Origin: Telmatactis stephensoni
Lineage: Eukaryota; Cnidaria; Anthozoa; Actiniaria; Isophelliidae
Direction of reading: 5' to 3'
Length of the DNA stretch: 64,000 bases
Assembly (NCBI GenBank): GCA_029948255.1
Contig: JALIZF010001367.1
Coordinates: 186,001 to 250,000 of the forward strand
How positions within the stretch are numbered: position 1 is the first letter of the stretch; each line of letters begins with the position of its first letter. This document shows, one piece after another, positions 1,444 to 31,454 of this stretch. The position numbers and the translations under genes were made by a program. The notes beneath the pieces were generated by a model. It was given only the letters and a program-made list of their open reading frames with translations, ran no database searches and was not told the origin of the DNA.

Positions 1444-1842
1444 GGTCTTTCAACATTACGAAGGATTTTAAATTCAATACGAAGCTTGTAGAAGTGTATA
1501 AAATAAAAATATCGAGAAAAATTACCCGAATAACGCTTCTAAAATCTTTTGTTTTGATGTTACAACTGATTGCTTTAATATACTCGTGCGATATTATGGA
1601 CGACTGGGTGACCTCGTTTTCATGTAAAATAGTTACCAGTTCTCCGCTCGTGATCGGCCATTATGAGAGCCGTGTATTACATAATTTTTTAACTGTTAGA
1701 AATGGATACATTTTGTAACACAAACTTTCAAAATTAAATCAGATGGATTGTTCCCATTAAGCAGCACTAGAAGTCAAATGTTTTCAAAAGAATGTGAAAA
1801 TCTGCCTAACTAACTAACTATCTAACTAAAATGGGATTTCCA

Positions 1843-3525
1843 CTACTTTTTTCTGCTCTTTTTTAAATGCTGGTAGACTTGTTCCACTTCTGTTAGTTGT
1901 GGAAATTTAATTGGGCCAACACCCAGAATACTGCACGGCCCATAAAACACACATGATCTGTGATATGTGTCTTTGTCGTCACGTGTGGGCCAGTCATATA
2001 ATCTCACCCCTCCAGACTGAGTAGCATGCAAGAACTTGAAGTCAGTAAGCAAGTTGTCTTTGTTTGCCAGTGCTCTGCCAAAGTAGAAAGACTTTTGGTA
2101 TTCAATAGCATAGTATTTACCCTCAATTATGGGTGATTCAGCAAATCCTTGTAGTTCCTGCTTGTGCAATTCAATGATCATCTGTTTCCTGAAACTTTGG
2201 ATGGAATCACTTGAGACGATTGGGGACTGTAGAAGGAAACATCTTGCATATAGGGAAATGTATACCCCACAGTCAAAACAATTTTGTTGTTGTGGAATAT
2301 CCTGTGGCGAGTTACAGTAAAAACACCACTGCCTGACATCAAGAACTTCATCAAACTCTTTCAAAAGCTTCCACATCTTATGAATAGCCCTTTTAACAGT
2401 TGGCTTGGCAAATGAACCTGCCAGGCTATCGAGAGCTACAATCTTCTTTTCAGGAGGTAGCATAATAAGGAGAAACCAGTGCTTGCTTTGACCAGGATTG
2501 CACGGTATCAAAACTACATCTTGATCAAGTATCGAACCTTTACCCTTGAGTACTTCTTTGGCTGGCCTTTTTCCTTTTGCTCTATCGAACTTCTCCCATT
2601 CAATGGTTTCCACGTTTAGGCCCTCTGCAATGCTCTTAGTGGCCAGAAGATTCAAATAGGCATCAACAACAAAGTTAGTTAGGTAATTATCTTCGTCTAC
2701 TTTATGGCCACCAACAAGAGAAGTGAGGTCTTTTTCATCAATGACATTATTTCCTTTAAACTTGACAGCACCTTCAAGCAAACTATTTAAAAGGGGCTGT
2801 TTACAATCAGGGAAAACACAAGTAGTCTCCTTGTGGAACTTGGCAGCAGTATTTCCATCTAGCCCACTGTGCACTTCTGTTCCTACCTGCTGAGAAACGC
2901 TGGAGGAGGGGTCATGGCCTTTATTGACACTCACTTTTGATGGGCAAGAAACACATTTTTTGACAGATGCTTGGAAGAGTTTTCCACCAGACAAATTGTT
3001 ACTAGGCTTTTTCTTCTTCTTTTGGATGTTGAGATTTTCCGAGGCTGTATGCTTTCTTTTTCTTGTGTTGGACTCTTGACTATCACTTTCATTGGGGAGA
3101 GGTTTTCTGCCAGATAAATTGTTAGGCTTTTTCTTCTTCTTTTGGATGTTGAGATTTTCCGAGGCTGTATGCTTTCTTTTTCTTGTGTTGGACTCTTGAC
3201 TATCACTTTTATTAGAGAGAGGTGAGTTTCCATCAACTCCTTTCAAGATTTCTGGGACTGTTTTGGTTTCTTCTCTTTTTCCTTGTATTGCATTAGGATT
3301 GGCATTGGGAGAGCCACACACCTTGTTCTTACCTTTTTGTTTAATGATAGAACAAATAAACAAAGAAACATTAATCAAGTGTTTTCTTGACATTGGATAG
3401 CCAACTGTATGCAAACGAACGTGTCGATGTTTTAAAAGATGGCCATAAAAGGAAATTTGCTGGCTCAAAGACCAGCTAACGTGGCTAGACTTCAAGTTTG
3501 TAATTTGAATTTGGTTTAAAGTCAA
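1843..3525 (-). CDS. Ulp1-like C48 cysteine protease, transposon-type
   Basis: Uninterrupted ORF of 560 codons. The C-terminal half is a Ulp1/SENP-type cysteine protease (C48). His349 lies in SKHWFLL, Asp366 in VALDSLAG, a Gln in PQQQN (about 413), and the nucleophile Cys419 in NCFDCGVY; the full catalytic set is present. A tail with repeated aromatic/WP blocks follows. The N-terminal half is lysine-rich and holds two copies of a 40-residue unit (about 108-137 and 148-177, ending in a KKKKK run), probably nuclear-localising and DNA-contacting. Stand-alone Ulp1-like proteases are commonly carried by animal DNA transposons (family knowledge). The first 65 or so residues look non-coding (a GGTAAG lies inside), so the true start or an upstream splice junction is uncertain. 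No terminal repeats were identified around it. It could be a SUMO-protease relative of host origin, but the context argues for a mobile element. Confidence 0.8.
   Translation of the reverse strand: MTLNQIQITNLKSSHVSWSLSQQISFYGHLLKHRHVRLHTVGYPMSRKHLINVSLFICSIIKQKGKNKVCGSPNANPNAIQGKREETKTVPEILKGVDGNSPLSNKSDSQESNTRKRKHTASENLNIQKKKKKPNNLSGRKPLPNESDSQESNTRKRKHTASENLNIQKKKKKPSNNLSGGKLFQASVKKCVSCPSKVSVNKGHDPSSSVSQQVGTEVHSGLDGNTAAKFHKETTCVFPDCKQPLLNSLLEGAVKFKGNNVIDEKDLTSLVGGHKVDEDNYLTNFVVDAYLNLLATKSIAEGLNVETIEWEKFDRAKGKRPAKEVLKGKGSILDQDVVLIPCNPGQSKHWFLLIMLPPEKKIVALDSLAGSFAKPTVKRAIHKMWKLLKEFDEVLDVRQWCFYCNSPQDIPQQQNCFDCGVYISLYARCFLLQSPIVSSDSIQSFRKQMIIELHKQELQGFAESPIIEGKYYAIEYQKSFYFGRALANKDNLLTDFKFLHATQSGGVRLYDWPTRDDKDTYHRSCVFYGPCSILGVGPIKFPQLTEVEQVYQHLKKSRKK
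2985..3225. repeat. 120-bp tandem duplication inside the Ulp1-like gene
   Basis: Two nearly identical 120-bp units sit head to tail and each encodes a basic 40-residue block rich in Lys. The period is a multiple of three, so the frame is kept. The few mismatches indicate a fairly recent duplication. Confidence 0.9.
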
Positions 3526-6056
3526 ACTCGTTATTGTACCAGACTCTCTGTTCTGCCTTCTAGCTTAATTGAGGCCCGAGTGTGTTTATTACAAACTTCA
3601 AATACTAATAATGCAACGTACAGTCATTTAGGAAATCAGAATTCTGCAGTGAAATTAAATTCTTTGAGGACGTGGGATATTAGCTGCTAAAATTTTGCAA
3701 GATGACGTACCAACAATCAGGCTTGACAATTTTCTAATGTTGAGTAATGAAACTTGTTAAACTAGACGCCTAATAGGCGTTCACTTGGGCTACCTGTGTG
3801 TAATACTTGGGGAGAAATGGGAGAACAGAAGTTGATGGAAACCAGATTGACTTGTCAGTGTGTCTTTTGATTGCAGAAATGCATGACAAATTATATTGGC
3901 CAAGGAGAAAGTATTTTGTAGATAATTGTACCACCTGATTGGTGGTATAAATATACTGCTAGCTTTTATCATGCCAGACATATACAGTCTGCTTTATTTT
4001 GCTAAATGCTTACCAAATGATCCAATATGATCTATAGATAATACATTATAGCTCAGACAAAATTTCTATTCTGTACTTTTTACTTTGATTTATGGAAACA
4101 AAAGTTACAAACTGCAGCAGACTGTTTCGATATCCAAGTTAAAATGACTTTGATATTGCTGTTATCACAGTGGTAGATTCTAGAAGTGCCTCAGTTACCT
4201 TTCTATGAAATCGTTTCAGTGCAGTCAATTCAGTTTCTTAACACAACTTTTCATATACATGTAAATATTACTATGTTTTCAATATGAAGCAGATCAATGA
4301 TTATAGCAGTAGTCAATTGCTGATGCTTAATCAGTTGAAGTTTAATGCTCGACGTGTAATGTAATACAATGTATGCTCATTACTGTTACCATATATAGCT
4401 CCTCCTTGCACATCAACCTGATACTACTACATAAAGTATGTTCAATTCGTCCACTTCATCTTGTTTCTGTGAACATGGTTGCACAAAGCTTGTACAAATT
4501 TGTGGTTGAGTATCACTTTTCATTGATTGAAAGATATCATTTTGTACATTCTAAAATTGGTTCTTCAATTGTTACCAATATAAGGTCTCATAAATATTAT
4601 TATCATTTCCATGATTATCCATCACTATATTTTGATCTGCTAACATTGAGCATGATTGACAATAAAGTGCATTCAATATAATCATGACAATTTGTACAAA
4701 ATACAGATTGCACTAAATATTTATAATTTATATACAAAATCATTTGTTTTGTTTATTTGGTGTAATTTTGTACTATTTACTAATTCTTGTTTCCTGGCTT
4801 AATTATTGAATACACTCTAGTCACCTTATTATGCAAAGGCGAGAATCTCCTAGTTTTTCTAGTAGTTGAAAAAACATTACCATTGTAGGTCATTGTACAT
4901 ATTTATATTGTTAGTTAATTACATCGCTTCTAACACGGCTCTCATGAAGAGCATGACTGTAGACACCGTGTATAAATAGAGTTTATATAAGCAAAAATTA
5001 TGTGCAAGCAGTGGTGATATAAAACAAACTTTTGATTTGAAGATAAAATATCTCCGTGTCTTACATGTCAGTCCTCAAGTGCAGTTCGCTGCCACAAATT
5101 GATCTCTGTATCGTATTCTTGGACGATCAATACATTACAAGTTGATTACAACAGCTGTTAGGGTCACCACTAAATTTGAGAATTCCATATTAACGATTAA
5201 GAGCAGTGACTATCCAAATATCTTGAGATTAGAAGCCAATAGTTCGATAAATTCCGATTGATAGCGTCCGCCATTTTGTTCAATTGCTCTCAATCCCTCG
5301 CGACAATTCTCAACAAGCCTTGTGGTCAACCTTGTTTTAATGACAGTGTACCCCAAAGGCTTCTGGGTAATTTGCCAATTTGCGACGTTGATAGATAGAC
5401 CGAAAAGGTAAACCTAAACTCGAGCTACCACAGGCAGCCCGAGTAATTAACTCAATACTTAATGAAACTTGTCAAATTTATACTTAAGATCATGTATTGG
5501 AATGTTCTATGTGTTTGCTTTTATTACAAATTCAATCATTCATCATGTTCTTGGCCTTTTCTTGTCACTGCTTATATCACTCTGAAAAGAAAGAATAACA
5601 CTTCCATTGGCATTTGCACTATAATGCAAAATAATAGAATGATGACATGCATTGATGTGAGTTATGGAAAAATATATTTAGAAATAAAGTACTGGACATT
5701 AGAAAGGGTAATTATTTTGAATATTGAGAAGTTAATCATGCTGAGTAATATATTGTGGGTTAATTACAGTACAACAATTAGTGATTGGTTTTGGTACACA
5801 TTGCAGTGATGATTAATTCTTGTAAGTTTTACAAGAAGTCATATGAAAATTAATTGGAAAGAAGAGAAAAAATGATACAGGAGACATTGAAATAGAGAAA
5901 TAAAAACAAAAGAAGACAATAGTGTAATACATATGGCAAATGAACATTCAGAGCTTTTATATATTGTATATGGATTCTAAGTTAATTTGTTATAAGTTAG
6001 TTTTTTTAAAAGAATAATTATTAAGAGGAAGGCTTAATTTATCAAATATGATTTAA
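3526..6056. other. AT-rich stretch without recognisable gene
   Basis: I see no coding exon with homology I recognise here. Open frames such as 4373-4681 and 5462-5809 are low-complexity and Leu/Ile/Tyr-rich, without domains or splice context. A small palindrome around CGCCTAATAGGCG lies near 3763-3780. Confidence 0.5.
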
Positions 6057-7832: not shown

Positions 7833-8550
7833 TATAATAATAATAAATAATAAACAATCTTTATTCAGGAAGCTTATTTCACAAAGTGTTTTACAATAAG
7901 GTCCTGCAACTTAACTAAACAAAATAAATTCTATCGATATATAAAAATGCATTATAGAAAACTATACGAATCAAATCGAAATACCTCCCTCAACCAAACC
8001 CAAGCAGTGATAAAACACTGATGAAAGATAAAATGATATAAGAACTACTAGATTCACTATGTTAATTATGGCAAGATATAAAATACTATAAGTATAAGTT
8101 AGCCCCCATCCCCTTTACAAGCTTCTTAAAGGTTGTAATATCCTTAGCTTCCCGTATATCATGATTCAAATTATTCCAATCACTAGCAAAATTAATTGAC
8201 GTCCAGTGGCCCCATCTATGCTTAGCGGCGGACAATGAATTGGTAGATATTTCTTTATGCGCTTAAGTAACCCTTGTTTTTTTGTTGATCTTAGATTTAA
8301 GATAGTCAATATGTTCGTGCCACGTCAAGTTTTTGTTGATAACTACACCAAGGTACTTGTAACTCGGTACTTCTTCCAAGGCGACATCTTCAATAGAAAA
8401 CACCATAGTTGACGATAACTTTACCAGGCGTTGAGAACTGCCAATAATCATTAACTTGGATTTCTTTATGTTAATTGTCAGGCGATTCGTCTTAAGCCAG
8501 CTGCATACTTTCTCAAGGTCACAGTTCAAATTCTCCTGTAGAACATCTGA
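7833..8550 (-). mobile_element. 3' part of non-LTR retrotransposon 1 (LINE-1a)
   Basis: Minus-strand 3' half of a CR1/L2-like LINE. Just inside the CACTA junction the RT C-terminal part reads through CDLEKVCSWLKTNRLTIN, then KYLGVVINKNLTWHEHID (the GxxL/thumb region). Then the frame shifts, a large stretch of the C-terminal domain is missing, and a relic ending in FKKLVKGMGANLYL and a stop follows. The element finishes in AATAAAGATTG and a TTATTATTA tail at about 7833-7853. The other half is at 22376-22855. The copy is dead: internal deletion, frameshift, 5' truncation and the insertion. Confidence 0.85.
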
Positions 8551-8565
8551 CCCTTGCGAAACGGA

Positions 8566-8905
8566 CTAGGAAATTCCTAGGAAATCCTAAGATATTCATA
8601 AGAAAATCCTAGTAAGTTTTCTTAGGAAATTCCTAGGAATGAGGTGTGAAAGTTCACAGTAAATTTGGACGAAGAATGCAAAGAATTCTTAGGAAATTCC
8701 TAGGAAATTCCTAGGAATTTCAGCATTTGAATTCAGGGGTAAAAATCCTAGGAAAATCCTAAGAATATCCTAGGATTTTTCTATGTTTTTTTAAATCATT
8801 AACTAGTTAGAACTTTTCTAGGAAATTACTAGGAATACAAGAATGTTTTTAGGAATTATAGAGATTTAATTAGGATCTATGAGCAATTACAATTTTCTAG
8901 GAAAT
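8566..8905. repeat. left subterminal array of TTCCTAGGAA words (CACTA-1)
   Basis: By eye about six exact TCCTAGG words and several variants (TTCTTAGGAA, TTACTAGGAA, ATCCTAAGA) within 340 bp. The word is a perfect palindrome. The spacer GGTGTGAAAGTTCAC also has a counterpart in the right array. In plant CACTA elements such arrays bind the TnpA-type accessory protein (family knowledge). Confidence 0.9.
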
Positions 8906-9017
8906 CTATAAATTTTGCAAAGGGGTAATAATCAAAGAAACATTACAGGCTGGTATAAAACACTGGTAATATTTTATTTTGTGGAAAATCTAAAATACTT
9001 TGAATGGATACAATAAA

Positions 9018-9356
9018 ATATAAATTGGGAAATACTATATAATATTTGCATTTATTTGTAAAAACTGTATACATACCAGATATAATGATCAAATTAGCAT
9101 CTTAATTTGCTTGATTTCAATAAATATAAATATAAATTGGGTAATACTATATAATATTTGCATTCATTTGTAAAAACTGCATACATATAGCAGATATAAT
9201 GATCAAATTAGCATCTTAATTTGCTTGATTCCAATAAATATAAATATAAATTGGGTAATACTATATAATATTTGTATTCATTTGTAAAAATTGTCTACAT
9301 AGCAGATATAATGATCAAATTAGCATATTAATTTGCTTGATTCCAATAAATTATAA
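9018..9356. repeat. three tandem copies of a roughly 115-bp AT-rich unit
   Basis: Each unit starts near ATATAAATTGGG(A/T)AATAC and contains GATATAATGATCAAATTAGC. Copies begin near 9018, 9130 and 9245 and differ by a few bases. They lie between the left subterminal array and the last BEN-gene exon, inside CACTA-1. Confidence 0.85.
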
Positions 9357-9470
9357 ATAACTATTTAGAAAAATTTATCAATTAGTACCATTTGCAATCA
9401 ACCATCTTTATTGTAAACTATTTTACAGTTTGTTAAGTTTCTAACGAGATGACTTTTCTGGAGCAAGTTA

Positions 9471-12400
9471 TCAGTTTTCACATGCACGATTAATGCTTTT
9501 GATCAGTTTATAGTAAGGTTGGAATGGGAGTTTAACAAGTTTTTCCTTTGCATCATGTTTTGATTGAATCATTGTGTTTTATAAATGACAAAAAAATACA
9601 ACCTGTAGAAAGGTTTATGTTAAATGGTTGATTGGAAATGGTAGTAAACATCTTTAAAGAGATAATTGAAAATTTGAAAATTTGATAATTTGAAAATTTT
9701 ATATAATTGCAAACTGATGGTACAATGATGACTGGCCTACTTGTTTTGCAGCCCCCTCTTAATGTTTCTTATCCAAGTCTTTGTTTTTTCGTTTGGTGTG
9801 TTAAATTTTGTCTGCATGATTTCTACAAGTTACAAAATAATCGGCATTAGTATAGATGATTCTTAAAAGTCTCAATTTTTTTTAGATAGTTGATAAACCA
9901 TATCATTAATCAACTATTTTAATAGTACATGTATAAAGGCTAATTAAGACTATGACTTATTGGGTAGCATTTACAATGATTGTCTAAATCCTTTGATTAC
10001 TGTAGCAATATAATATGCATAGTCTTGTTTCCAGTTACAGATTGCTGAGCTTCTTTACAAAAGCCACATTATTCTACAGAGATAGCCTCATTCTCAAGAA
10101 AGACTCATGGGAGTAAACTTGAATTTGTTTTGGAACCCAAAAAAAACCCTTGAGTTTACTCCCATGGGTCTTTCATGAAAATGAGGCTATCCCTTTGAAA
10201 ATGCACCTTTTGTCTGGAAGCTCAGTGGTCTCTAGTACTGGAAACTGGACTATTTGGAGCTATTTGCATGTGCATAACAATTTCTGTATTTTTAAGGTCA
10301 TGTACCATTCTGTTGATGTGCAATAATATTACAGTGCATTCCTCAAATTGTGGCCTTAAATACCGCAAAGTTTTTGATTACTTTTTGACAACTTTGAACT
10401 TGAATTAGAAGTCCTGAAGTAAATAGATGCAAACAAACTTGATTTTAAACATGGCTTTTTCATTTAGTGTCAGTATCCACTATAACTATATCAGTGGACA
10501 ATCTCTGCCTATCAGACTAATCAAAGTCAGAGACAGTCTGACATTCTTAATTGCATAGTTTAAGCAGTATTCATAGTTGTCAGAAAGGGGTCAAAAACAC
10601 TAACTTTGCGGTAGTGGCATTGGTTTGAAGCATAGTTCTATAAAAGGCATGATTATGTAATCAATAAATCCCCCAAAATAATGAGGCTTACCAGTGATCA
10701 TGTCTAGCTTCTGTGGGTCCAGAGCTTCCTTTTTGTCATCTCGATCACATTTCCAGGTAGTCATGCCTTTGATTGTTTGTGTTTGGATCTCCTCTTTTTT
10801 AAACAGAGAGAAAAGCATCTTTTTCAGGGCTTGCCTTGGCTCCAAACCTGCAGTTATTGCCTCTAGTCTTGATTTCTGTTCAAATGGCAATATTAAGTAA
10901 TTCATTATTGAACAATAAATACAATGCAAAGCTTTCATTAATTTCTTGCACAAATTCTAGGCTTTAATTCCTAGGTTAATTGATCCTGCATGGGTTATTA
11001 AACAACAAAACACTATCTTTTTCATATTTCCTTGCTCAGGGCCCCACTGTCATAAGCATTAAGCTCAAGGAACACACACACACACAGGCTCAGTAGCGTG
11101 TTCATACAACTGGCCAGGTTAATATTCTTGTTGTTACTCAATTTGTAGTTTCAAAGCCCCATTAGTAGCAATTTTCCATTGCAATTTCCCCCAAACTTTA
11201 GATTTACTTCAATGTTGTACATTCAATGTACTAATCATTATTATAATGCCTATGATATGGTACTTACATCAGATTCTTCTTCCTCATTCACTTTATTTGT
11301 CTAGGTAAAAAATTGAAAAGACAATATTGAACATATATGTGGACATCAAACACACTGTCTTAAATACTGATCGGCATGACTAATTTTATGTCTATAGTTA
11401 TTGATATTAGTCATTCATTTCGTTACATTACATTTATTTTGTATTAACTTATAGTGTATTATCATATTTTAAATTGCATTAATGGTAATTATCCATGAGA
11501 TAACACCGTAAACGTGAGGAAGTTTGTTCAATTATTAGAATCAACATAACCCATTAACTTTCACCCAAGTTTTAATTGGATTTTCTTGGATTTTCTTGGT
11601 TAATCTTGAAACGTTTTGCAAATCATCAAAGACCCAGTATTAACAAGTAAATAAATGCACTGTCAATATTCCTGTTGTACATATATGATCACACAATCTC
11701 TGCCCTATGAATCACGTTTGCATATAACTATTTGCATTTAAGGACCCTTCAAAGCATTGAAACTTCAGGACAATAGCAAGGTATAAATATTATTGTGCGA
11801 CTCTCAAGATTTCAAGTCGCCAAGCACTGTAATAATGCATTTTTGTCACTAAATTCTGTAGCCATGTGTTATATATACAGTACCTCTCAAGTAACCCAAC
11901 TTCTACTCATGAGTATAAGTGGCAAGTTCAAGTGCTGACCCACGAATATTCATGAATTAAGTCAGAAATAAATTGTAACTTTCAAGTATGAGTCACCTGT
12001 GAAGTTGTTCCTTGAGAGCAGAGTTTGACATTTTAAATATCTACCAAAAGCAGTTGAAAAATTATTGGGGGGCATTAGCTCTGCACCAATTGCCCCTTCC
12101 AATTGCTAATTAAAAGCCATAAGTAAGTTATTTGGGCCCAGTGTGTCCAGGTTCATTGGTTTTGAAAAGGTTAATTTTTGTGCCTGAATAGGTATATCCA
12201 TTTCAGCTACATATTTTATACAGCAGAAAATAATTATGTGTCTCACCTTTTTCCTTCTTAGGTGTTTTATTTCTGATTTCAGATGGTAAACCTCTGCCTT
12301 CAACTTCTCCATCTCTTCCGATATATGTTTTGAAAAGGAGGCAAAATCTTTATTGCTAGGCTGAGATGGTGGAGAATCATAAGTAACAATCTCTTGTGCA

Positions 12401-14493
12401 GCATCATAATCTTCATATTCCATATCACTGTTGTCATTTAGAAGTGAAAGCATTGAGCCTGAATGTGTCTTGTGTGAATGCTGCTGTGTCCAAGATGCAG
12501 TATTATATAAATTAGTTGTTGTGACTGACTTGTGTGGCCTTGTTGTTAAAGGTGTTATATGTGTGTTTATTGAATTATGTGAAGGTGGTGTTGTGGAGGT
12601 TTGATACTGTAACTGAGTGCTGAAGTGCTGTTGCATTGGTAGTGTATGATTACTTGAATGAGAATATGGTAATAGGTTTGCTTGCATAGGCTTATTAAGG
12701 ACTGGTGTATTGCAAACAGATGGTGGTGTTAGCTCTGTTAAGATATTTTGGTCTTTATTAGTTTGTGTTAGGCCTTGTGGTGTTTGTGGTGGTGATGGTG
12801 GATCGGCTATAACAATAGCATTGACTTTAGGGTCATTGTGCATTCTTGTTGGCGGAAGTGGCTCTACATTTGTGTTAGGCTGGTGTCGTCTTTGTGAAAG
12901 CACCTGAGATACCCTTTCCCTCTGGACTTTATCTTGAAGCTGCAAAGTTGAGAGTATTAGAGAATTAATAGTGACAAATACAATTTAAATCAAATTAAAT
13001 ATCTGAAAAACAGTGTAGATGAGACGTCTATTTAAAAATATCAAATTTAAATCATATTATTAAGGAAGCATTTAGATTAATCTTGAAAAATAAAATATAA
13101 AAGTACACAAAATACATGGAGCAAGACAAATTTAAAAATAAAATAAAATTATGATTATCTTAATAAGAGAAGTTTACAAGTAAATACATGGTAAACTGAA
13201 AAAGACTTACTGGGGGAACAGAGATTTTTTTTTTCTTTGGTTGTTCTTTCTTTGTATTTTCTTTTTGAGCCTGATCCACGTCATCTTCATCAGAAGAAAC
13301 TACTTGTTTTGTCTTCTTCTTCTTCCTTTTGGAGACTTTTTTGGGGATGTCATCATTGATATCATCTTCATCAGAAGATACTTGTTTTGCCTTCTTCTTT
13401 TTGGAGACTTTTGGGGGGATGTCATCATTGATATCATCTTCATCAGAAGAAACTTGTTTTGCCTTCTTCTTTTTGGAGACTTTTGGGGGGATGTCATCAT
13501 TGATATCATCTTCATCAGAAGAAACTTGTTTTGTCTTCTTCTTTTTGGAGACTTTTTGGGATATTTCATCATGGACATCACCGTGTGCTATTAGAAACGT
13601 AAACATCATTAATAATTAACCTATCTTAATATAGACAGAATTCTGGACTGGTGTTCTCTTTCAAATATATCATACTTACACATTTCATTGCATTCGATTG
13701 CCTTTTGGGAAGGCTTTCGCTTTCTTTTCCCATCGCATTCCTCAACTGCAACTTCAATAGAAATAATTGAATTTAATGAGTAACTAAGCTTACTACTTTA
13801 TAATACAGTCGAGATTGTTTGCATAATTAAAAAAGGCGGGATTTCTGAAATGCTACACTCACATCGATTATTAAGTGGCTTACCTGGGGTGAGTATGCTT
13901 TCTTCATGTTTCAAAGCCTCACTTTTTGTTCCTAAACAAATTATTTTATGAGTCAAAAGTAATAAACGAAAACTTAATCAGGTAAAATTGACGAACAGTT
14001 CATGTTTAGTTCATTTCGCAATTCAGGAATGCAGTCTAGTTGATTCAGATCATTTGGTTCAAGAATGACTCGCATATAAGCTTAATATTCAGCATTTATT
14101 TAATCAAAAGTAATAAAACTCATACCTATGAAATCAAGGAAAACATGATAAAATCGATAGTCGCTTTAGGCATAAGCGTATATTCACCTCGCAATTCAGG
14201 AATGCGATTCACTACTGTGGTTCATAATTCACGATTCAGGAATGAAATACAATATTTAGCATTTAACGGACATTGCTACATCTATTCTCGAAAAAAAATA
14301 CGTATTTAAGTTAATACTTACGATAGACAGCTATAACGGTTGCCTTATGGATCACCATACCATCTTTTCCGTTCAGGGGAACATCACATATACTTCCAGA
14401 AAGCTCTGACATTTCTTTGCCCCCTTTCGCAATTTTTTTGTCTGGAATGACAGTGACTCCCTTTCCCTCGATCCACTCCACAAGAACCCACAT
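9471..14493 (-). CDS. BEN-domain protein of CACTA-1, probable TnpA-like accessory DNA-binding factor
   Basis: Spliced minus-strand gene. Exons with matching phases: 14493-14322 (start MWVLVEWIEGKGVTVI, a small beta-rich N-terminal module), 13931-13884, 13751-13680, 13587-13211 (four repeats of a DEDDINDDIPxKVSKKKK unit), 12939-12247 (Gln/Pro/Ser-rich, then a coiled coil EEMEKLKAEVYHLKSEIKHL), 11300-11268, 10875-10692 (BEN domain: ALKKMLFSLFKKEEI ... EALDPQKLDMIT). A final exon at about 9545-9471 ends LIKSINRACEN and stop, as BEN domains do. The phase between the last two exons does not match, so a small exon between 9546 and 10691 is missing from this model. BEN domains bind DNA and often palindromes (family knowledge). 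It shares its upstream region with the transposase and lies wholly within the element ends, hence the inferred role in binding the CCTAGG arrays. Confidence 0.85.
10028..10247. repeat. fold-back element in a BEN-gene intron
   Basis: Inverted arms: GATAGCCTCATT and GACTCATGGGAGTAAACTT on the left are matched by AGTTTACTCCCATGGGTC and AATGAGGCTATC on the right, and the match extends weakly outward to TTTCCAGT / ACTGGAAA. It would fold as a long hairpin. No coding capacity; probably a small MITE. Confidence 0.7.
13300..13590. repeat. coding minisatellite, period 66-69 bp
   Basis: Near-perfect repeats in exon 4 of the BEN gene encode acidic/basic units (SSDEDDINDDIP followed by KVSKKKK). The antisense strand also stays open across it, but only because the repeat has no stop in that register. 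Confidence 0.85.
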
Positions 14494-14781
14494 GGTTAAT
14501 TACCTCAGTAGACAAAAGAGACACGATTTTACAACAAAAACTAAGCTCAACGTAGCGTAGAAGAACGAACAACGGTTTGAAATTGAGCGCGGATTTCTCT
14601 CCGGTCTGTGGAGTACATTGATTGGTTAAATTTCGTACCATGTGATCTGATTCTACTCGGAAAAGGACTTGGACTGGTATCACGTGACTGTTCGGCGGGA
14701 AGACGCCATGTTGAAAAGTGCTGAAATGTTGAAAGAATCTTGAAAGAGTTCGAGTTTTTCTTCGTTGATAGTGCAGGGATT
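14494..14781. promoter_or_regulatory. shared divergent promoter region of CACTA-1
   Basis: 288 bp separate the ATG codons of the BEN gene (-) and the transposase (+). The stretch is less AT-rich than its surroundings and contains CpG dinucleotides and an inverted CCAAT box (GATTGG near 14619). I see no TATA box and no CCTAGG word in it. Divergent transcription would coordinate the two proteins; this is inferred from the arrangement. Confidence 0.6.
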
Positions 14782-17700
14782 ATGGATGGAAATAACTTAC
14801 AAGATGAAGGACAACAGTATTACAGCATTATAACGGAGAACAACCGGAAAAAATTCCAATGTGTGCTTTGTAATCGCATTCTCTCGCGGCAACAGACTTT
14901 TGAGTTCCACTTACGTTCTGTGCATCAATACACAGGAGCTGGTAAGTATAGAGTTTGTAAGCTTCATATTCTTCATTTAAATCAACTAAATTTCAATTTT
15001 TGGTTCCTGTTTATTTGTAGAGGTCTTCAAGAGAAGGTATAAGCTGTATGAAAACGATCCAACTGTCAAAATTCCAAGACAGACATTACATTACCAAGCA
15101 AAAAACAGTAAATATCAACTTGATAGTTCACATGTATTTCCCCAAGAATGTGGCGAACCAGGGAGGTTGCAACTGATGAATTTCATTGAAGATCAGACTA
15201 CATACTCTTCTACAGACAGCAATGCATTTTGGACTGCACCAAAAGAGTGTGATGTAACAAATACAATTGTTAATTTTGGTAGTAGTATTGCAGAAAGTGT
15301 GCCAGTGATTCCCTCAGAGGATGTTGATGACTATAACTTTGTTTGCTTTGCTGATGAATTCAGCTGTGTCAGTGATACTGAAAGTGAAGAATCTTTGTCA
15401 TCGTCCTCTGGTGGTGATGAAAGTGACAGCTCAACAGATGAGTCAGAAAGTGAATTTGGTGAAAACAGCAATGAAAGAACTCAAGGCCCATCAACTTTAC
15501 AAAGTATAAGTATGGCAATAATGGCATATGTTTCAAGGCACCATCTCACTAATGAAGCAGCAAAAGACTTGATAGAGGTTTTAAAACTGTGTTGTCCAGA
15601 AAATGATATGTTCCAGTCAGTTAATTTTAGTTATGTACAAGAGGTTTGTGGACAGTGTGAAATTACAGTGTTTGATATCTGCGAAGACTGCCACCGTGTG
15701 TTTCCAGAGGATCAAAATATCTACCAGTGTTCCACAGAAGGATGTACAGGGTAAGTCAATTATAAACTGCTGTTGTAGTTGGGTTGTTGTGGTAGAGTTG
15801 ATATTAAGGGAATTGGTGGGTTGCATAGAATTAATGTGTAATGGTAGATGTATCTTAAAATTAATTGAATGCAAAATTGTTGGTGTATTTTGTATATGTG
15901 TGTGCATGTATGAAACATAGCTAGCTACATTCATTTTTTCCAGGTTACGATACAAGGGTACTATTTCTCAGCAATCTAAGAAAAAACACAAGAATGGTTT
16001 TGCCACTGTGAATATATTCAACCAGTTGAGGCATTTATGTGATATAAATAGGGCATAATTTTTATCTTTTTGGTATTATAAATATTAATAATAATAATAA
16101 TGGTTTATTCCAGCTTTTCTACATAGTGGCTATACATCTGGAACTAAAACTATAAAAATCTAAATTAACATGACCCAATAGATAATTACCATTCCCAGAA
16201 AGAACTGAAGTATTAAAAACATATTCAACTATTTACAGATAAATTAACAATTACACATCGTTCCCCCTCCCCCTAAAAGTCAAACAAAGTAATTTTAAAA
16301 AGACACCATAAGGGGTAAGTTGCACAAAACCAACAGTTTATCAGCATTGTCCCCATCCAGTTAAACCCCCAGCAGAAGATTAAAATGATGTGGTTATATC
16401 TAATAACTATGATGGATTTGAAAGGTCATATTGCTTGTAGATAAGTGCTTAGTACAAAATAATAGTCATGTGGTGCAATACTTTAAAATAATACTTAGTC
16501 CTGTTAAAATGATGTTCAATTAAATAAAGCACCCTTGGTATACTGGACTAAGTATATTATTATTAGTAGTATGCCATAACTAATTTATTGTACTAAGCAT
16601 GTTTGTATTCGTTCTTGTTACATTGATTTTGCTTTTACTTATTTGCAGGAGAAGGAGTTTGGAAAACCATTCAGCAAAGAAGGGCAGGTGGTGGAAGAGA
16701 CATTTTAACTGACATTATAGATGGAAAAAATTATCAAGCACTTTGTAAAGAGGGGCAGCTCCTACACAATCCTGACAACATCAGTTTGATATTTAACACG
16801 GATGGTGCTCCACTGTATACTTCGTCTAGTGTGTCACTGTGGCCTGTTTTCTTGGCAGTCAATGAGCTTCCCTCCCCTGATAGGTATTATTTTTAAGGGA
16901 ATATTACATGGGTTCACACTAATTCTAAATATAGGGTTGGTAATGGTCCAAGAACACTTGCATAAGCTGTCTTGTGAGTAGTTTTTGCATGTTTACTTTA
17001 TTGTTTTAAAGTTTTGAAGTCGAGTTCAAATTAAAGTTAAGAAATATTTGACTGTAAAATTTAAAGTGCACTTGAAATCCAATTTCACCTGTCTTAATTA
17101 ATTAATGGACCTAATGCCTCGTGACAATTTTGTCCCAATTAAGCATGAAACAGAACGATTAGAAGAATGATCTGCTTTTGTTTTGAAACTCTTCCAATTA
17201 CCTCTTATTCATTGGGAAATTCACAAGGTTTTTTTGGTAAAAAATATAATGAATCTTCTAGTCAGGTTTATCACACTTGTGTGTGATAGCTCTGTGGATT
17301 GCATGGATTAGGTCTATTATTGGAGTTATGTGAACTCAGACTTTAATTTTTGTTGTTTAAGTTTCTTGTATCACTTCAAAAATTGAAACAACATCATTTT
17401 ACAGCAGCAATATCCTTGTTAAGTATTTCTTTCACCTGATACCACATGAAAAAATATTTATGTATCATACAAGATTGAGAACAACACTTCAAACAACCCC
17501 AGTCAACATTTCATTTCATGGTCCATTTCTTGAGCTAGGACTTGAACCTGGACCTTAGTTGTAAATGACTGGTATCATGTTACTTGACTAACTAATTCCA
17601 CTTGAGAATTGACAGCCTCTGCTATCATCTTAAAATACAACAAATTCATAATTGCACAATGTTCATCAATGTACATGACATACATAGTCATATTTGATAC

Positions 17701-20700
17701 TCCACGATATATTTTTATTTTAATGCCATAAAATGCTTTTTTCAGATTTTCAAAGCAAAACATGCTGATGTGGGGAATCTGGCAAGGAAAGGGCAAGCCT
17801 CCATTCAATGTCTATTTTGAGCCATTTGCAACACACATGACTGAATTGTATCAAAATGGTAAGATGCAGTGCTTCTTTGTTTTGATTTGTCGTTATAAGT
17901 GCAATAATTCCATTAAAGCGATCCTTTTAACCAGGACTAAATATCACTCCAAATAAGAAGAAGAGCTCAATAAATGTGAAAGTGGCTGTCCTTCTTGGTT
18001 CTCTAGACTTACAAGGAAAAGCTTACCTACTAAACATGACACAACTCAATGGAGAAAATGGGTGTATTACGTGTGAAGAGCCTGGTATAGTAGTAAAGCA
18101 AGGAAAGGGCCACACTCGATGTTACCCATATAAGGATAGTAAAGATGCACCAACAAAAAGATCATGCCATTCATTCATTCAGGATGCTATCAAGGCCAAT
18201 GAAGAAAAAGTAATGGTAAATATCTCTCTCATATAAACTTTCTTTGTGCTCATAACAAGGAAATTGAAGCTTCTTACACTAATGTGTCATTCTTGCATAG
18301 TTAAAAAAGAAAATACTCATGATAGATGACATGTAGTGAGATATGCCACGTGCCACTAAAACAATAAACAAGTGAAAGACAAATGAAAATTTGCATCAAG
18401 ATCAGATCTATGAAGCACAAACTCATGCACTTTTGCTGATGAAATAAGATGTATAATCTGTAAAGTACTTTGGTAGTGATTATCCAAATAAATTGTGACA
18501 ATAAGTGGCCAAATTCTTTCCAAACAAGATATTCTGAACTGTCTTATTATCTCATCAGCAAACCTGTGCAATGAATCGCAGAGCCTCGGGTAAATTATTT
18601 GGGTCCTTAGTGTAGCGTGAGATAAATAATTATTCTATGAAATCTTTATAAATTTATGTAATTGAGTCCAACAAAATATACTGAACTAGAATTGTTGGTC
18701 TGAGTTGTAAACTAATAGAATTTATGTGATTTCAAACAAAATAATAGGTTTGTAATCTTGTTACTTTTGTAATGCTAGGTCAAAGGACTCTTTGGTGTTA
18801 CCAGTCTTGCACTGATGGAATGGTTTGACATTGTAGTAGGGAGTGTTCCAGATTATATGCATGGCTGCTTATTGGGTGTAACAAAAACACTTCTCAAAAA
18901 GTGGGTATCATCCAAGAACCACAAGATGCCTTACTTTGTTGGAGGGCAGGTATACCAATGAGATTTAGGTCATGTTGACAAAATTTATGTACAAGTTAGC
19001 TCATTTTGGGGCTTAAATTACATGTAGTTGTTATTCTTTCTTAGATTTCCAAAATAAACAAGCGGTTAATAGCGATGCGACCCCCCGACACCCTAGCAAG
19101 ACTGCCAAGAGACCTGGAAAAGCATTTTAAGAATTTGAAAGGTAATATCACTGTAGTGTGATAAATTACTTGTTTCAAGATGGATGTTTAATGTCTAATG
19201 AATAGAAATGAGGCTGATTTAGAACTAGATTTCCATTATCCATGCCTTCTGTTCTCCCCCTCAAGAGGACCAACTTTTCAGGGGTTTTGGGACTTGTTTT
19301 GTGTATTGTTGAAAAGTCATTTTAGCATGAAAATAATTAGTTCTCACTGATTGCCTTAAACATATCATTGAATTTTTAAAATCTCTTTAAAGCTTCAGAG
19401 CTTCAGGCGTGGCTACTTTATTATGCTATTCCATGCCTGGTGGGCTTCCTCCCTGATAAGTATCTCTATCACTTTGCCCATTTGTCAGAAGGCATCTACA
19501 TACTATTGGGCGATGCAATTTCCCAAACCCAACTTGCAAGAGCACATGACTTACTGAACAAATTCTACATGGACTTTGGAGATCTTTATGGTAGGTATCT
19601 TTTTATCTCATATTTTGAGAATTTAAGTAAAAATCCAATCTTGTACTGGGAGAGAATGAAGTGAGAGAATTAGCAAAAGGTGCAGTGATGACATTAATTT
19701 TGCAGGTCAAGGCAGTTGTGGTCTTAATGTTCACAATGCAGGAGCACATCTAGTAGAGTATGTAAAGGGGTGGGGGCCACTCTGGGCTTGGTCTACCTTT
19801 GGCTTTGAGGATATGAATGGGACTCTGATGGACTTCACACATGGAACTGGAAATGTCTGCCGCCAGGTAGCGTTAACAAATTACAGTATGATCATTAAAA
19901 TTTTCAATTTATGATACTCAATCATTTTCTTCAGAAAATATTAAGGCTTCATAGTCATGTCTCAGAGACAAAAAATTTTCAAGATGGCTTTTGTATAATC
20001 TAAAATGATGAAATTCAAACCTGAAGATCAATGCTGCATTCACACTTACCACTTAAACATGTTTAAAAGTGGTTTAACTAAACAAGGTTACAAACCAAAT
20101 GCTCATAACATTTGCATCTTATAAAAGAGGTGAAAACTTGTTTGATTAAAATATCACAGCAAGGTTGTTTGAAATGTGTCTTGTGAAGGTGACTCGACAG
20201 GGTTATCAACAGAATGGAAAAACCTAAACCTGGTTTAGTTAAACTAGTTTAGTTGGTGTGAATGCAGCATAAGTAAACATAAAGCTGCAAATGTTTGGTC
20301 TACATGTATATACCCTAGCTTATGCAATGTGCTAAATAATGTTGATTGAGATATATCTTTATTATAATAAATATTTAAAGAGGCTCTCTCTTTATGCTCA
20401 ACATTTTTACGATGGAATCACAACCAAGAGGGTATATTAAATATAAATAACTGATTTAATATTTCTCCTTTTTTAGTTAATCTGGATGCTACATGCACAG
20501 AGCCGCCTTAGATGTGATGTTAATTTAATGGAAAACAGTAATAGTAAAGCCTTTATCCAACGTATGCTCAGCACAAATAGACAGTAAGTCGATAACTTAG
20601 TGATTATGTAATATGATTAATTTTAATTTCACATTAATGGGAAACCTGCACTTCAAATTGTAGGATCAGTAATTTGAAAGAAGCCAAAAAGTGTCACATT

Positions 20701-21708
20701 GCAGGAGGTGTGAAAAAGCTGCAGGGCATTCAACTTGAAACTATGACAGAAATCACCTCATTAATTGGAATAGGTACTATCTGGGAGGCTACTAGGATTG
20801 TTGTCAATAGACATGTGTTCTTTTCCAAACATTACACCAGAATGGTCAAGCGAAATCCATGTGTTGTTCAATTCCATGACAACACAATTGGCGAAACTGA
20901 ATTTTTTGGATGGAACAAAGAAAGTGGAGAGGTTGTAGCTGTCTACAAAGAAATTAAAATCGACTTAGACAAGCCATTTTTTTGTAATGATGCTGGATTT
21001 CATGTAGTGCGTGTAATGTCAGACAGGTAAGATACTTTAGACACTAATTAGGGTTTACCGATTTATGGGCATAAAGACTGATTTGGCACTAATAGTGCCA
21101 GGTCACAATGGCTACATTTTACATTTTTGAGGAACTTTTGTTAAAAGAGAATTCAAACTAGTTAATGCACAAATTGAATTGCTATAAATTCTAGTTTAGA
21201 GTGGTTGTAGCCTAAAATTGGAGGTGTAAGTGTTACGCACTTAATTGCACACACGCGCTAATTAGCATCTGGTACTATTAGCACCAAAGCCTGTAAATTG
21301 GAAAACTCTATTGGAAGAAATTTGATTCCATGCTCGAGGCATTTAGAAAATTGAGGTTGTTTGAATGTTTCACAAAGATTGATTTCAAGTTTTTCTCTCC
21401 TTAATAGAAATTATTATGGTCCTAGAACTTTCTGTATGAATAATATATAGGATCAGTAGTGTTCTGTTCCCTTTCTGTTATTTTATTTTACCATTTGATA
21501 ATAAATTGTAATTAATAATTATTGCCTAATAAGTAAAAGTACATATTTGTCAAGATGTCTTTAATTATAGACAATTTGTTTTACTTGTAGGTCTAATCTT
21601 CAAGTTAAGAAGGTTGATGATATATTAGAGAAAGTCATGCTGCTTGAAGGCAACTTGGGCAACCCTTGCATAATACGCTTTCCCAATTTCAATGGTGTCT
21701 GTGGTTAA
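14782..21708 (+). CDS. Tnp2-type CACTA (EnSpm) transposase, multi-exon
   Basis: Thirteen exons with compatible GT-AG junctions encode roughly 940 residues: 14782-14941, 15021-15750, 15944-about 16045, 16649-16883, 17746-17858, 17935-18215, 18779-18949, 19045-19141, 19393-19590, 19706-19866, 20477-20582, 20664-21026, 21591-21708. Exon 1 holds a C2H2 finger (FQCVLCNRILSRQQ, C-x2-C-x12-H-x4-H). An acidic Ser-rich region and a Cys-rich finger (CGQCEITVFDICEDC) follow. The Tnp2 core has NTDGAPLY (first Asp), WGIWQGKGKPPFNVYFEP, LLGSLDLQGKAYLLN (second Asp), NGENGCITCEEPG, PDYMHGCLLGV and FGFEDMNGTL (candidate catalytic Glu). Start: first ATG in frame after the shared promoter. The ORF is intact apart from one problem: exon 3 lacks a normal GT donor in the needed phase (see findings). 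Confidence 0.88.
16066..16330 (-). repeat. probable retroelement 3' tail in transposase intron 3
   Basis: Begins with an ATTAATAATAATAATAATGG microsatellite and continues as non-coding sequence similar in style to the minus-strand LINE 3' ends elsewhere in the window (TTTATT next to the simple repeat). No ORF. Assignment is tentative. Confidence 0.35.
20031..20270. mobile_element. 240-bp MITE in a transposase intron
   Basis: Perfect 15-bp inverted termini ATGCTGCATTCACAC at 20031 and its reverse complement ending at 20270. Internal TTTAACTAAAC / GTTTAGTTAAA words also pair. A target duplication is not obvious. It sits in the intron between exons 19706-19866 and 20477-20582, so it need not disrupt the protein. 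Confidence 0.7.
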
Positions 21709-22039
21709 ACCGATATTACGTACATATAGAATTTAATACCAAGGTTTTACAACCACTGCTATGGACAAATATAGATATGAAATTTATCATTTTGAATTAT
21801 TTGTAACATTAGCTATAACATTTATGTACGTGACCCAGAACATCAACTTCAGTTCATGGTAAATTCTAAGAAATTTTGACATTATTTAATTAGTAATGAA
21901 TTTTGAGATTAAAAATACATATGGATAATAAATTTTACCTACACATGCAGATTATGTTATGTAATATTTATATAATGTAATATAATTAAATATATAACCC
22001 TCAGAATTTTTTGGGGATTCCTAGCAACAGAAAATTTAC

Positions 22040-22364
22040 ACGAAATTGTTAGACTTAAGATTTGTGAATTCAGATTCTCAGGCATTCCTAACAATTTCCT
22101 AGCAATTCCTAGGAAGTGTAGTTTTGGCTGTTCACACCTTTTGGAAGTCATTTTGAGTTCCTAGGAAATTCCTAGGAATTCCTAGGAATTTTGGTGCTGT
22201 GTTGTTCACACCTTTTTTGAAGATCTGAACTCCTAGGAAATTCCTAGGAATTCCTAAGAATTTCAGTGCTGTGTTGTTTACACCTTTTGTAAACATTTGA
22301 ATTCCTAGGAAAGTGCTAGGAATTCCTAGGAATTTACTAGGAATTCCTAGAAGCTAGGAATTCA
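22040..22364. repeat. right subterminal array of TTCCTAGGAA words (CACTA-1)
   Basis: By eye about eight exact TCCTAGG words plus variants, in a higher-order repeat of roughly 70 bp that also contains GTGCTGTGTTGTT and CACACCTTTT. The array runs up to the terminal inverted repeat. Confidence 0.9.
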
Positions 22365-22375
22365 TTTCGCAAGGG

Positions 22376-22855
22376 GAGCCTTTGGATGAAAAGTACAGTA
22401 CGGTGTCATCAACAGAGTTACACGACAGAAGCTCAAGATGTTAGGGAGATTGTTCATGTAAATGATGAACAATAATGGTCCAAGGATAGATCCTTGGGCC
22501 ACTCCTATAGACACTTCAGCTGATTCAGATTGAGCGTGATTGAACACAGTGACTTGTGAACGGCCCATCAGGAAGGATTCAAACCAATTACAGGCATGCG
22601 CATCCACACCAAGAGAAGACAACTTGCGTAACAAGAACTTGTGGTTTACGGTGTCGAAGGCCTTCGCAAGGTCTAGAAAGATGGCACCAGTTAGCTCACC
22701 GTCATCCACTAATTTTAACACATTATCAGTGAACTTCGCCGTGGCAATCACTGTAGAGGAATTGAGTTGAAAGCCATACTGATTTATCGTGAGAAGTTGG
22801 TTATCATTAAGGTATGAATTTAGCTGGGTGTGGATGGCTTTCTCCAAGATATAAA
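22376..22855 (-). mobile_element. 5' part of LINE-1a reverse transcriptase, truncated
   Basis: RT fingers and palm: ILEKAIHTQLNSYLND, NQYGFQ, GAIFLDLAKAFDTVNHKFL (first catalytic Asp) and GVAQGSILGPLLFIIYMNN. The active-site box appears as SVDDTVLYF after a one-base frameshift near 22430. The element begins abruptly near 22855, a 5' truncation usual for LINEs. At its lower end it meets CACTA-1: the codon series ...SSKGS here continues as DVLQENLNCD on the far side of the transposon. Confidence 0.88.
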
Positions 22856-22859
22856 ATTT

Positions 22860-23388
22860 TCTTTCATAGGGTAACCATATATATTGCAGAGATTCTCAGC
22901 GCGACCTGACTTCATACTTATTATCTTGGCTTGAATTGATTCGGCCCGTAGACGAGCTTCGATTTGAACAGTAACACACAAAATAACCCGTAACAGTACA
23001 TTGCCCTCTCGAAAAAATATCACTTAGCATTTTGTGATTTTCATTTATACTTCGGGAAACATAAAACATCTCGATTGGAATCGCACAGGAATCCCAATTC
23101 ATCCCTGTGGCGTCAAGGTTCGCCATGAATATGCCACCGGACATAAAAATTGAGTTCGCGGATCAATATTCAGGTGACGCCATAAATCGCACAGGAAAGG
23201 AAATCCCACACCAAGGAAATCCCACAGGAAATCCCACACCAAGATTAGTGTTACTGCTTGCTTCGCTCCCAGCAATAAGATATAGTTGCAGTCAGCTTCA
23301 AGCTATGCCCTCAGTAACTACTATATATATATATATACATAGTTACTAATATATTTTAGGCAAAGTGATTTTGATATGATTACAAAGG
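22860..23388. other. unassigned stretch with one open frame
   Basis: A minus-strand open frame (23144-22896) starts MSGGIFMANLDATGMNW and ends where the LINE begins. I do not recognise it and see no clear splice sites. It could be a disrupted first exon. A short TATATATA run lies near 23320. Confidence 0.3.
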
Positions 23389-26342: not shown

Positions 26343-26528
26343 TGCACATATGTAGGGCGATACATCACCACTAGCATCATACTACCGAACCAGGTAGACT
26401 GTGAATTAAATGATGTGCGTGACAGTTGAATTAGGTGTTATTCATACACATTTGAAGTCACGTGGATAACTCCAACCCATCAGAAATGTAAACAGTACGT
26501 GATCAAATTCCTGAACGATCGTTGTAGT

Positions 26529-27625
26529 ATGGCGGGATTTTCAGTTAACAAAAAAGGTAGAAGTTTTATTCGCGGCAAATCAATAGATGAGAGCTTGCGA
26601 GGAAATATTATTGATAGCATAGTAGCTGAAGGTGGCGACCTAGCATCTGGATTTTTTCCAGGAAAGTTCTCAGATGTTGCAGAACGATACAGAGTTTCGT
26701 CTCAGTTTGTTTCAAAGTTGTGGAAAAGCCTCTCCGTTGATGGTGAATATTTACCAGCTAAGAAGCAATCAGGAAATCCTTCGCACCTAAAACCTGACGA
26801 TGTGAAGTTTATCGAGTTTCTTAAAAAAGAGAAACCTTCCATTCAATATCATTCTATTAAAGAACATCTTCAAAACTATAGTAATAATAATAATATAATA
26901 ATAATAATATAATAGACGGCGGCACCTCCAAGACGGCAATCGGAAATGTTGTTAGAAATAAGTTGCCAGAAGGACCATTCACAAGAAAGCGGATTGCGAA
27001 AGCATCAGATGGAAAATTTACCCCAGCAAACGTTATTTACTGTCAGCAATTTCTAAATACTTTGAGTGCTTTGCCACCCAAAAAGCTGAAGTTCTTTGAC
27101 GAGGCTGGTGTGCATTCTGGATCTGGAAATCCTGTTTATGGAAATTCATTGAGAGGGCAACCCGCTGTCGAATTAATCCCTGGCAATCATAAAGGAGCAA
27201 ATGTAACTCTGAGCTTACTTTGTGGATTGGAAGGCATACTCTATGCAAACACTGTAGATGGAGCTTCCGATTCTACAAAATTCCTTAATTTCTTCGCAGA
27301 AGCTGGTCAAGCAACGACAGCACTTGGCAGTCCAGCCATTGAATTTGGTGATTATATTATACTTGATAACTGTCCTACACATCGCTATGAGATTGGAAAC
27401 ATTCTTCAAAGATGGTTAATGCACATGGGAGCACAAATAATTTATACCCCATCTCTTTCACCAGAGTTCAACGTGTTAGAATTAGTTTTTAATCAATTGA
27501 AAACTGTGTTAAAAAGGGAAGAATTTCGGCCCCTTTTAAAGGAGAACACTCACATTGCTGTTTATGAAGCACTGGAACTGATAACTGTTGAAGACATGTA
27601 TGGGTTTTACAGCTTCATCTTGTGA
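26529..27625 (+). pseudogene. Tc1/mariner-type transposase 1 (DD37E), one frameshift
   Basis: Starts MAGFSVNKKGRSFIRGKS, then a paired-like helix-turn-helix (FSDVAERYRVSSQFVSKLW). The frame breaks at an ATA/AAT microsatellite (26878-26913) and resumes at DGGTSKTAIGNVVRN. The nuclease core has LKFFDEAGVHSGS (first Asp), YIILDNCPTHR (second Asp) and LSPEFNVLELVF (Glu). Counting from the second Asp to the Glu gives 37 intervening residues, against 34 in Tc1. A stop follows at the C-terminus. All catalytic residues are present; the only lesion seen is the microsatellite shift, so this copy could be one slip away from coding. Confidence 0.85.
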
Positions 27626-29636: not shown

Positions 29637-29778
29637 TTCTAAACATCGAAGACGAAGGAATGCAACGAACAACGTTCACCTTTCGATCTCACAGGAGTTG
29701 TCCACGTGACTTCAAAGATGTACATTTGACGCCAAAATCAACTGTCACGTGCGTCTTTGAATTCACGGTCTACCTGTT

Positions 29779-31075: not shown

Positions 31076-31454
31076 ATTGAGAGAGAAAGTTGGTTTGATT
31101 TACAAGAGTCGAATGAGACTCAAATGGATAGGTGTTATGCATTATTATGCATTTCTTTACTACAAATACCAGAATGCTTTGCCAACAATGTTTTTGTGAG
31201 ATCATTAGCACCAAATGTTTTGAGGGATTATGGTGGATTCATAAATCTGAATAAGAAAGAAAATGCGCGCATGCAGCATGTTGGCTGGTACCCACAATAA
31301 AGAAACGTCATAATGCATATCGCCTATTTGGCGTCTGCTTGTGACAAACATAAAAGTTGCATAATCAAGCATTTGGAGCGCGCGTGAATCAAAGTCTGTG
31401 AGTATGCATATTGAAGCCCGAAGCAGCAAGCTCAATTTATTTGTCATTTCAAAT

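Follow-up and report, generated by a model that had tools for sequence, protein, structure and literature searches.

A TRC-type transposon of Telmatactis stephensoni with divergent transposase and BEN-protein genes: a plausible TnpA-like partner encoded by one copy

Introduction

A 13,825-bp stretch in the genome of the actiniarian Telmatactis stephensoni raises the question of whether an animal CACTA-type transposon can encode, in addition to its transposase, a second protein that binds and pairs the transposon ends. The stretch lies in a window of 64,000 nucleotides (positions 186,001 to 250,000 of contig JALIZF010001367.1, assembly GCA_029948255.1), which is the whole of the DNA that was analyzed, and all coordinates below are those of the window. 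The authors who described the animal TRC elements propose a TnpA-like second product (DeMarco et al. 2006, PMC1636069), and the candidates for this predicted DNA-binding product are described there as having no similarity to other TRC sequences. The element discussed here carries a gene for a BEN-type protein beside its transposase gene, and such a partner would answer that prediction in a concrete and testable way.

We give a probability of roughly 0.5 to the reading that this is a near-complete animal CACTA-type (TRC) transposon encoding two proteins, with the BEN protein acting as a TnpA-like factor that binds and pairs the ends. From one copy, the BEN protein is a plausible occupant of the TnpA role. 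We will examine the boundaries of the element, its two genes, the repeat arrays at its ends and the region between the genes, and then weigh the proposed mechanism against its alternatives.

The mobile unit and its insertion site

The element extends from 8551 to 22375 and is bounded by the 11-bp inverted repeat CCCTTGCGAAA at 8551-8561 on the plus strand, with its reverse complement at 22365-22375. A GA dinucleotide lies on each side (8549-8550 and 22376-22377). A sequence-only reading that preceded this analysis had described 11-bp inverted termini with a GA duplication, and both were confirmed. There are two exact matches to CCCTTGCGAAA in the window and these are the two element ends; with up to two mismatches there are 15 matches, which is about the number expected by chance (shuffle mean 11.2, with 21 of 100 shuffles reaching 15). 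The inverted repeat stops after 11 bp, and the identity of the flanks is limited to GA, as TGA precedes the left end and GAG follows the right end.

When the flanks were joined (60 bases from each side, with one GA removed) an open reverse-transcriptase frame was obtained on the minus strand, reading ...DDTVLYFSSKGSDVLQENL... The first half of this interrupted retrotransposon reverse transcriptase is the minus-strand ORF 22362-22895, which matches positions 21-142 of the RVT_1 profile with 72.7 bits and has its last codons inside the element. The second half is found at 8263-8550 on the same strand (ORF 8263-8565) and matches profile positions 164-205 with 19.1 bits, below the cut-off of 29.6. 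As the joined flanks restore the frame and the two flanking ORFs correspond to segments of RVT_1 that follow one another, we conclude that the element inserted into a pre-existing retrotransposon and that both of its boundaries are exact. These results demonstrate that the element is one mobile unit. Within it, an A+T-rich unit of 114 bp is repeated in tandem about three times at 9012-9359, between the left array and the BEN-protein gene. An Rfam search gave no matches.

Several other ORFs of mobile-element type were observed in the window. A second retrotransposon reverse transcriptase ORF is located at 33506-34582 on the minus strand (RVT_1, 110.6 bits). Pieces of a DDE_3 transposase lie on the plus strand at 26430-27625 and 31980-32411, the first of them behind a paired-box-like region (PAX, 23.9 bits) in a different frame. 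A single minus-strand ORF at 44696-46819 contains a PIF1-like helicase (94.9 bits) as well as a weak Exo_endo_phos match (18.5 bits, below the cut-off of 24.5), a combination that we take to resemble the Helentron-type Helitrons. On the minus strand at 757-3564, a THAP-domain ORF stands beside a Ulp1-type (Peptidase_C48) ORF, and the two are perhaps parts of another mobile element. Additionally, an ORF with a DM DNA-binding domain (48.6 bits) and, after it, a PB1-like ORF (15.8 bits, below the cut-off) lie within 28362-31099 on the minus strand.

The transposase gene

The tnp2-type transposase gene occupies 14782-21708 on the plus strand and was modelled with 13 exons and 12 GT-AG introns, giving 943 codons including the final stop. 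The protein matches the Pfam family Transposase_21 (PF02992) with 51.5 bits against a cut-off of 28.6, and its N-terminus is zinc-finger-like, with BED and C2H2 matches that both fall below their Pfam cut-offs. Residues 340-940 have 195 homologues at E<=1e-3, with a best identity of 65% among the 120 matches listed. Organism names accompany 12 of these 120 matches, and every one of these names belongs to an animal (molluscs, a coral and an acorn worm). The end of the gene model coincides with the end of the nearest relative. Pattern searches for the transposase in viral contigs (12 matches) and in prokaryote contigs (8 matches) yielded no confirmed loci.

EnSpm transposases and their relatives share the pattern D, D, C(2)C, H(3-4)H, E (PMC12730594), and the corresponding residues in this transposase are D380, D469, C488, C491, H703, H708 and E728, which are invariant in a 10-sequence alignment. 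The columns for D, D, CxxC, DxxH, H4H and E were identical in all 33 homologues chosen from the 120 matches listed of the 195. The assignment of the triad to these residues is our own.

The exception to an otherwise regular gene model is intron 3 (16039-16648), where the canonical join of exons 3 and 4 results in an in-frame stop. The nearest homologue is two residues longer at this join, and the window contains no further GT donor before exon 3 reaches its own stop codon. The transposase gene of this copy is thus, judging from the sequence, probably damaged at the splice donor of exon 3, although the stop may instead stem from a non-standard splice or from an error in sequencing. As the transposase is probably disabled, the copy gives no sign of current activity.

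The BEN-protein gene

The second gene is read from the opposite strand. Its coding span is 9737-14493 on the minus strand and consists of eight exons joined by seven GT-AG introns, encoding 552 amino acids. The exons are, in order of translation, 14322-14493 (with the start codon), 13884-13931, 13680-13745, 13211-13587, 12247-12939, 11268-11300, 10692-10875 and 9737-9822, the last ending in the stop codon at 9737-9739. It had been claimed that two spliced genes diverge from a 288-bp region and that both lie inside the ends; the start codons do flank 14494-14781 and all introns as modelled are GT-AG. The sequence-only reading had also named, as a finding that would count against it, BEN exons belonging to a host gene that crosses the element boundary. 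This is excluded for the present copy, as both the modelled start at 14493 and the modelled stop at 9737 fall within 8551-22375.

The protein begins with a short N-terminal region of no known family, followed by a repeat of basic runs and SSDEDD, a long part, a predicted coiled coil and, at residues 481-547, a BEN domain. The repeat is encoded in exon 4 as an in-frame 72-bp unit present in four copies, the fourth of which has diverged, and synonymous and non-synonymous counts among the units comprise few changes. The predicted coiled coil is at the end of exon 5, starting at residue 425 and extending over about 25 residues. In a test of 21 residues within a 44-residue stretch picked by eye, all six a/d heptad positions were hydrophobic, and 6 of 1000 shuffles scored at least as high.

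Exon 7 encodes the first part of the BEN domain and exon 8 its end. The BEN profile scored 21.3 bits on the whole protein, below the cut-off of 23.2, and 25.5 bits on the C-terminal 88 amino acids, above it, so that the earlier identification of a BEN-type protein is upheld on the 88-residue piece. The match was absent when exon 7 was scanned alone or read into its intron, as well as in all six shuffles (one of which gave an unrelated weak match). As the match appears only once exon 8 is added to exon 7, the spliced exon 8 completes the domain. Exon 8 had been chosen from the ORF list before any profile search was made, on the grounds of its splice site and phase and of a resemblance to the way in which BEN domains end, and for this reason the match is a partly independent check of both the gene model and the domain. 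Apart from BEN, no Pfam family was above its cut-off in the whole protein or in the three pieces scanned.

Homologue searches, which required shared 5-residue words, covered residues 1-90 and 400-552. Residues 400-552 gave 165 candidates, none at E<=0.01, and residues 1-90 gave 35 candidates, none at E<=10. A sequence search of the PDB returned seven matches up to E 10, all of them weak. The best was an unrelated protein (E 0.017), and the fly protein RE55538p, which is presumably Insensitive, was aligned over the BEN region at E 0.15.

Two further observations concern this gene and its domain. A 42-nt inverted repeat, 90% complementary, lies at 10078-10194 in the last intron and is perhaps a nested small element. 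A second BEN-like ORF is present in the window at 54687-55427 on the minus strand, with 22.9 bits, just under the cut-off of 23.2, and a weak leucine-zipper-like match near its start (13.9 bits, below the cut-off). The presence of this ORF indicates that there are BEN-like genes in this genome.

The subterminal arrays and the central region

Arrays at both ends had been reported in the sequence-only reading, and they were recovered here as two sets of 15 sites that resemble the palindrome TTCCTAGGAA with at most two mismatches. The left array extends over 8574-8903 and the right array over 22018-22353. By the same definition the outermost 400 bp on the left and 386 bp on the right contain 15 sites each, compared to 4 in the 13 kb between them and 22 in the 50 kb outside the element; 500 mononucleotide shuffles of the same end stretches gave expectations of 0.17 and 0.20 sites, respectively. 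In an 8-mer census TCCTAGGA and CCTAGGAA ranked at the top of those common to both ends and were almost missing elsewhere. Counted over the two strands of the 64 kb, where one palindromic site may score twice, CCTAGGAA has 26 matches compared to 1.2 expected, and 24 of the 26 are in the two ends of the element.

Adjacent sites are often separated by 10-11 bp (7 of the 14 gaps on the left and 10 of the 14 on the right), and this phasing was equalled in none of 2000 random placements at either end. Gaps of this size also signify tandem units, since each palindrome measures about 10 bp. In the right array the sites are grouped in threes, with a spacing of 10-11 bp, on a 72-bp tandem repeat, and because part of the array is this repeat its four triplets are not independent. 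Triplets are also found in the left array, at 8686/8697/8708 and 8745/8756/8767, and as these have other linkers they suggest that the triplet of palindromes is what is kept in the arrays. That the termini and arrays arose by chance is ruled out by the exact 11-bp ends together with the enrichment and phasing of the sites relative to shuffles and random placements.

The 288 bp between the two start codons (14494-14781) are a candidate for a divergent promoter. The region is CpG-rich, with an observed/expected ratio of 1.34 compared to 0.32 for the whole element and 0.52 for the window. No TATA box was found in it. It contains ATTGG, CACGTG and GGCGGGAA, which we take to be sites for the CCAAT-box, E-box and E2F classes of factors. 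The window holds 130 occurrences of CCAAT or ATTGG, 10 of CACGTG and, with both orientations counted, 2 of GGCGGGAA; with 130 occurrences, the ATTGG in the promoter is uninformative. The region contains no array-like palindrome.

Proposed mechanism and alternative explanations

In the mechanism that we propose, both proteins would be made together from the central CpG-rich divergent promoter. The BEN protein would bind TTCCTAGGAA in dimers spaced one helical turn apart, and multimers formed through the coiled coil would coat both ends of the element and pair them. The transposase, whose N-terminal finger perhaps recognizes the terminal repeat, would then cut at CCC...GGG and insert with a 2-bp stagger. 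The BEN protein would in this way bind and pair the ends as TnpA does, but with a domain that is unrelated and from a gene of its own.

The closest support for such a dimer and multimer machine comes from Insensitive, which binds CCAATTGG as a dimer, requires sequence outside the BEN domain for dimerization, multimerizes and has a coiled coil (PMC6317261). The BEN domain of NAC1 selects the palindrome ACATGT (PMC7764960). BANP is described as preferring AAATCTCG or CGCG, so that BEN domains do not all favor palindromes. By comparison of site types, the palindromic arrays fit what some known BEN domains bind, and the BEN protein is by analogy a candidate binder of the arrays. The finger of the transposase could be the array binder in its place.

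This last point is central to the strongest of the alternatives, in which a BEN gene captured from the host, or carried along as a passenger, takes no part in transposition and the transposase alone binds the ends and the arrays. We consider this rather improbable. A captured gene would be in keeping with the single copy and with the searches of residues 400-552 and 1-90, which found no homologue of the BEN protein; among the 120 transposase homologues listed, none is annotated by Pfam with a BEN domain, and the ORF at 54687-55427 points to BEN-like genes in the genome. That ORF, however, aligns to the BEN piece of the transposon over just 22 residues (E 0.093). A passenger also leaves unaccounted for the divergent layout on one CpG-rich promoter, the full BEN ORF with its seven canonical introns and the occurrence at both ends of palindromic arrays that resemble the known sites of some BEN domains. 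An accident of a different kind, in which a host BEN gene happens to lie inside two unrelated repeats or has been placed there by mis-assembly, would equally agree with the lack of a second copy, but it is very improbable given the exact 11-bp termini with their duplication, the restored reverse-transcriptase frame and the concentration of the arrays at the two ends.

It is also possible that the BEN protein shields chromatin. As a regulator or shield outside the cutting complex, it would bind the arrays, which would serve as insulators or antisilencers, or it would repress the element, in the manner of BEN boundary factors on host chromatin. We regard this as unlikely, and as less probable than a captured gene. 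The promoter, with a CpG ratio of 1.34 against 0.32 for the whole element, seems to have been protected from CpG loss, but CpG retention is ordinary for promoters. Known BEN proteins are described as boundary and chromatin factors (PMC6317261), and plant TnpA also acts at a promoter (PMC1636069), both of which agree with a regulatory role. The position of the arrays is what argues for end binding: they lie tight against the cleavage sites and are missing from the promoter, as end binding predicts. As the promoter is without an array site, a mere promoter-repressor role is disfavored, and end binding is preferred to plain autoregulation because the arrays adjoin the cut sites.

If the BEN protein is an end-binding partner, it would connect transposon biology with a family of proteins that act at chromatin boundaries, and the roughly 30 phased sites would be a natural set for the study of BEN multimerization. 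More tentatively, at somewhat worse than even odds, an animal CACTA lineage may have turned a BEN domain, independently, into a counterpart of TnpA that pairs the ends, with BEN multimers bridging the helically phased palindromes much as chromatin is paired by boundary factors of the BEN type. Certain boundary proteins of this type in hosts could then derive from such transposons, or the reverse.

Comparison with known systems

Membership among the classical plant CACTA elements is ruled out by the termini and the duplication, as the element has CCCTT where those elements have a terminal CACTA and is flanked by the 2-bp GA where a 3-bp duplication is the rule. Maize En/Spm has, like the present element, repeated subterminal sites; its target duplication is 3 bp, and its TnpA is not known to be a BEN protein. 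En/Spm requires two element proteins for its transposition, as is proposed for the present element; it differs in its CACTA termini and in the origin of TnpA and TnpD from one alternatively spliced unit, whereas here there are two divergent genes (PMC1636069). The sequence-only reading had proposed that the element recreates the two-protein logic of the plant transposon. The BEN gene inside the unit and the fit of the arrays to BEN-type sites stand, and the gene layout departs from that of Spm. Because the Spm proteins share one alternatively spliced unit, the pairing of BEN protein and transposase would be an analogy to the plant layout and not a copy of it.

Members of CMC/CMCT (EnSpm) have 5'-CA..TG-3' termini in most cases and duplicate 2 to 5 bp (PMC12730594). 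The element has the Transposase_21/tnp2 domain, the D-D-C(2)C-H(3-4)H-E motif and a duplication in this range (GA), and it ends in CC..GG, as do the TRC elements of PMC1636069 and PMC4298943. Its CCC termini and 2-bp duplication place it among the animal TRC CACTA elements, and by these features, seen in one insertion, it is of the animal TRC type. The earlier designation as an animal CACTA transposon is therefore kept for a Transposase_21 mobile unit and narrowed to the SmTRC1 type, away from the classical plant group.

SmTRC1 and the other animal TRC elements share with the element a Transposase_21 protein, termini starting with CCC, a 2-bp duplication (in 7 of 14 copies of SmTRC1) and spliced transcripts, here predicted (PMC1636069). 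In the three species with known ends they are 4.5, 5.2 and 9.2 kb long, compared to 13,825 bp here, and their second products PrA and PrB arise by splicing of the same unit and resemble no other TRC sequence, whereas the BEN protein has a separate gene (PMC1636069). No BEN protein appears in the available portions of that description. The Hydra element Spongebob (EnSpm-4N1_HM) is similar in its CCC termini, 2-bp duplication and TRC assignment (PMC4298943). It differs in its terminal repeat CCCAGCCAACATTGAC, its 5.8-kb consensus and a transposase with stops or frameshifts, and the available part of the source describes no second gene. The open-licence PMC literature, in the portions available and with Repbase outside its scope, yielded no description of a transposon-borne BEN protein.

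Among host proteins, Insensitive and NAC1 resemble the BEN protein of the element in the domain itself and in their palindromic targets, which compare with the palindromic arrays as candidate targets here, and Insensitive additionally in its coiled coil and multimers, which are predicted and proposed, respectively, for the protein of the element (PMC6317261, PMC7764960). The targets differ, being CCAATTGG and ACATGT compared to the array site TTCCTAGGAA. NAC1 has a BTB domain, and the coiled coil of Insensitive starts near residue 51, whereas that predicted for the protein of the element is just before the BEN domain. In comparison with the known TRC elements, what sets this element apart is its BEN partner, encoded as a separate and divergent gene.
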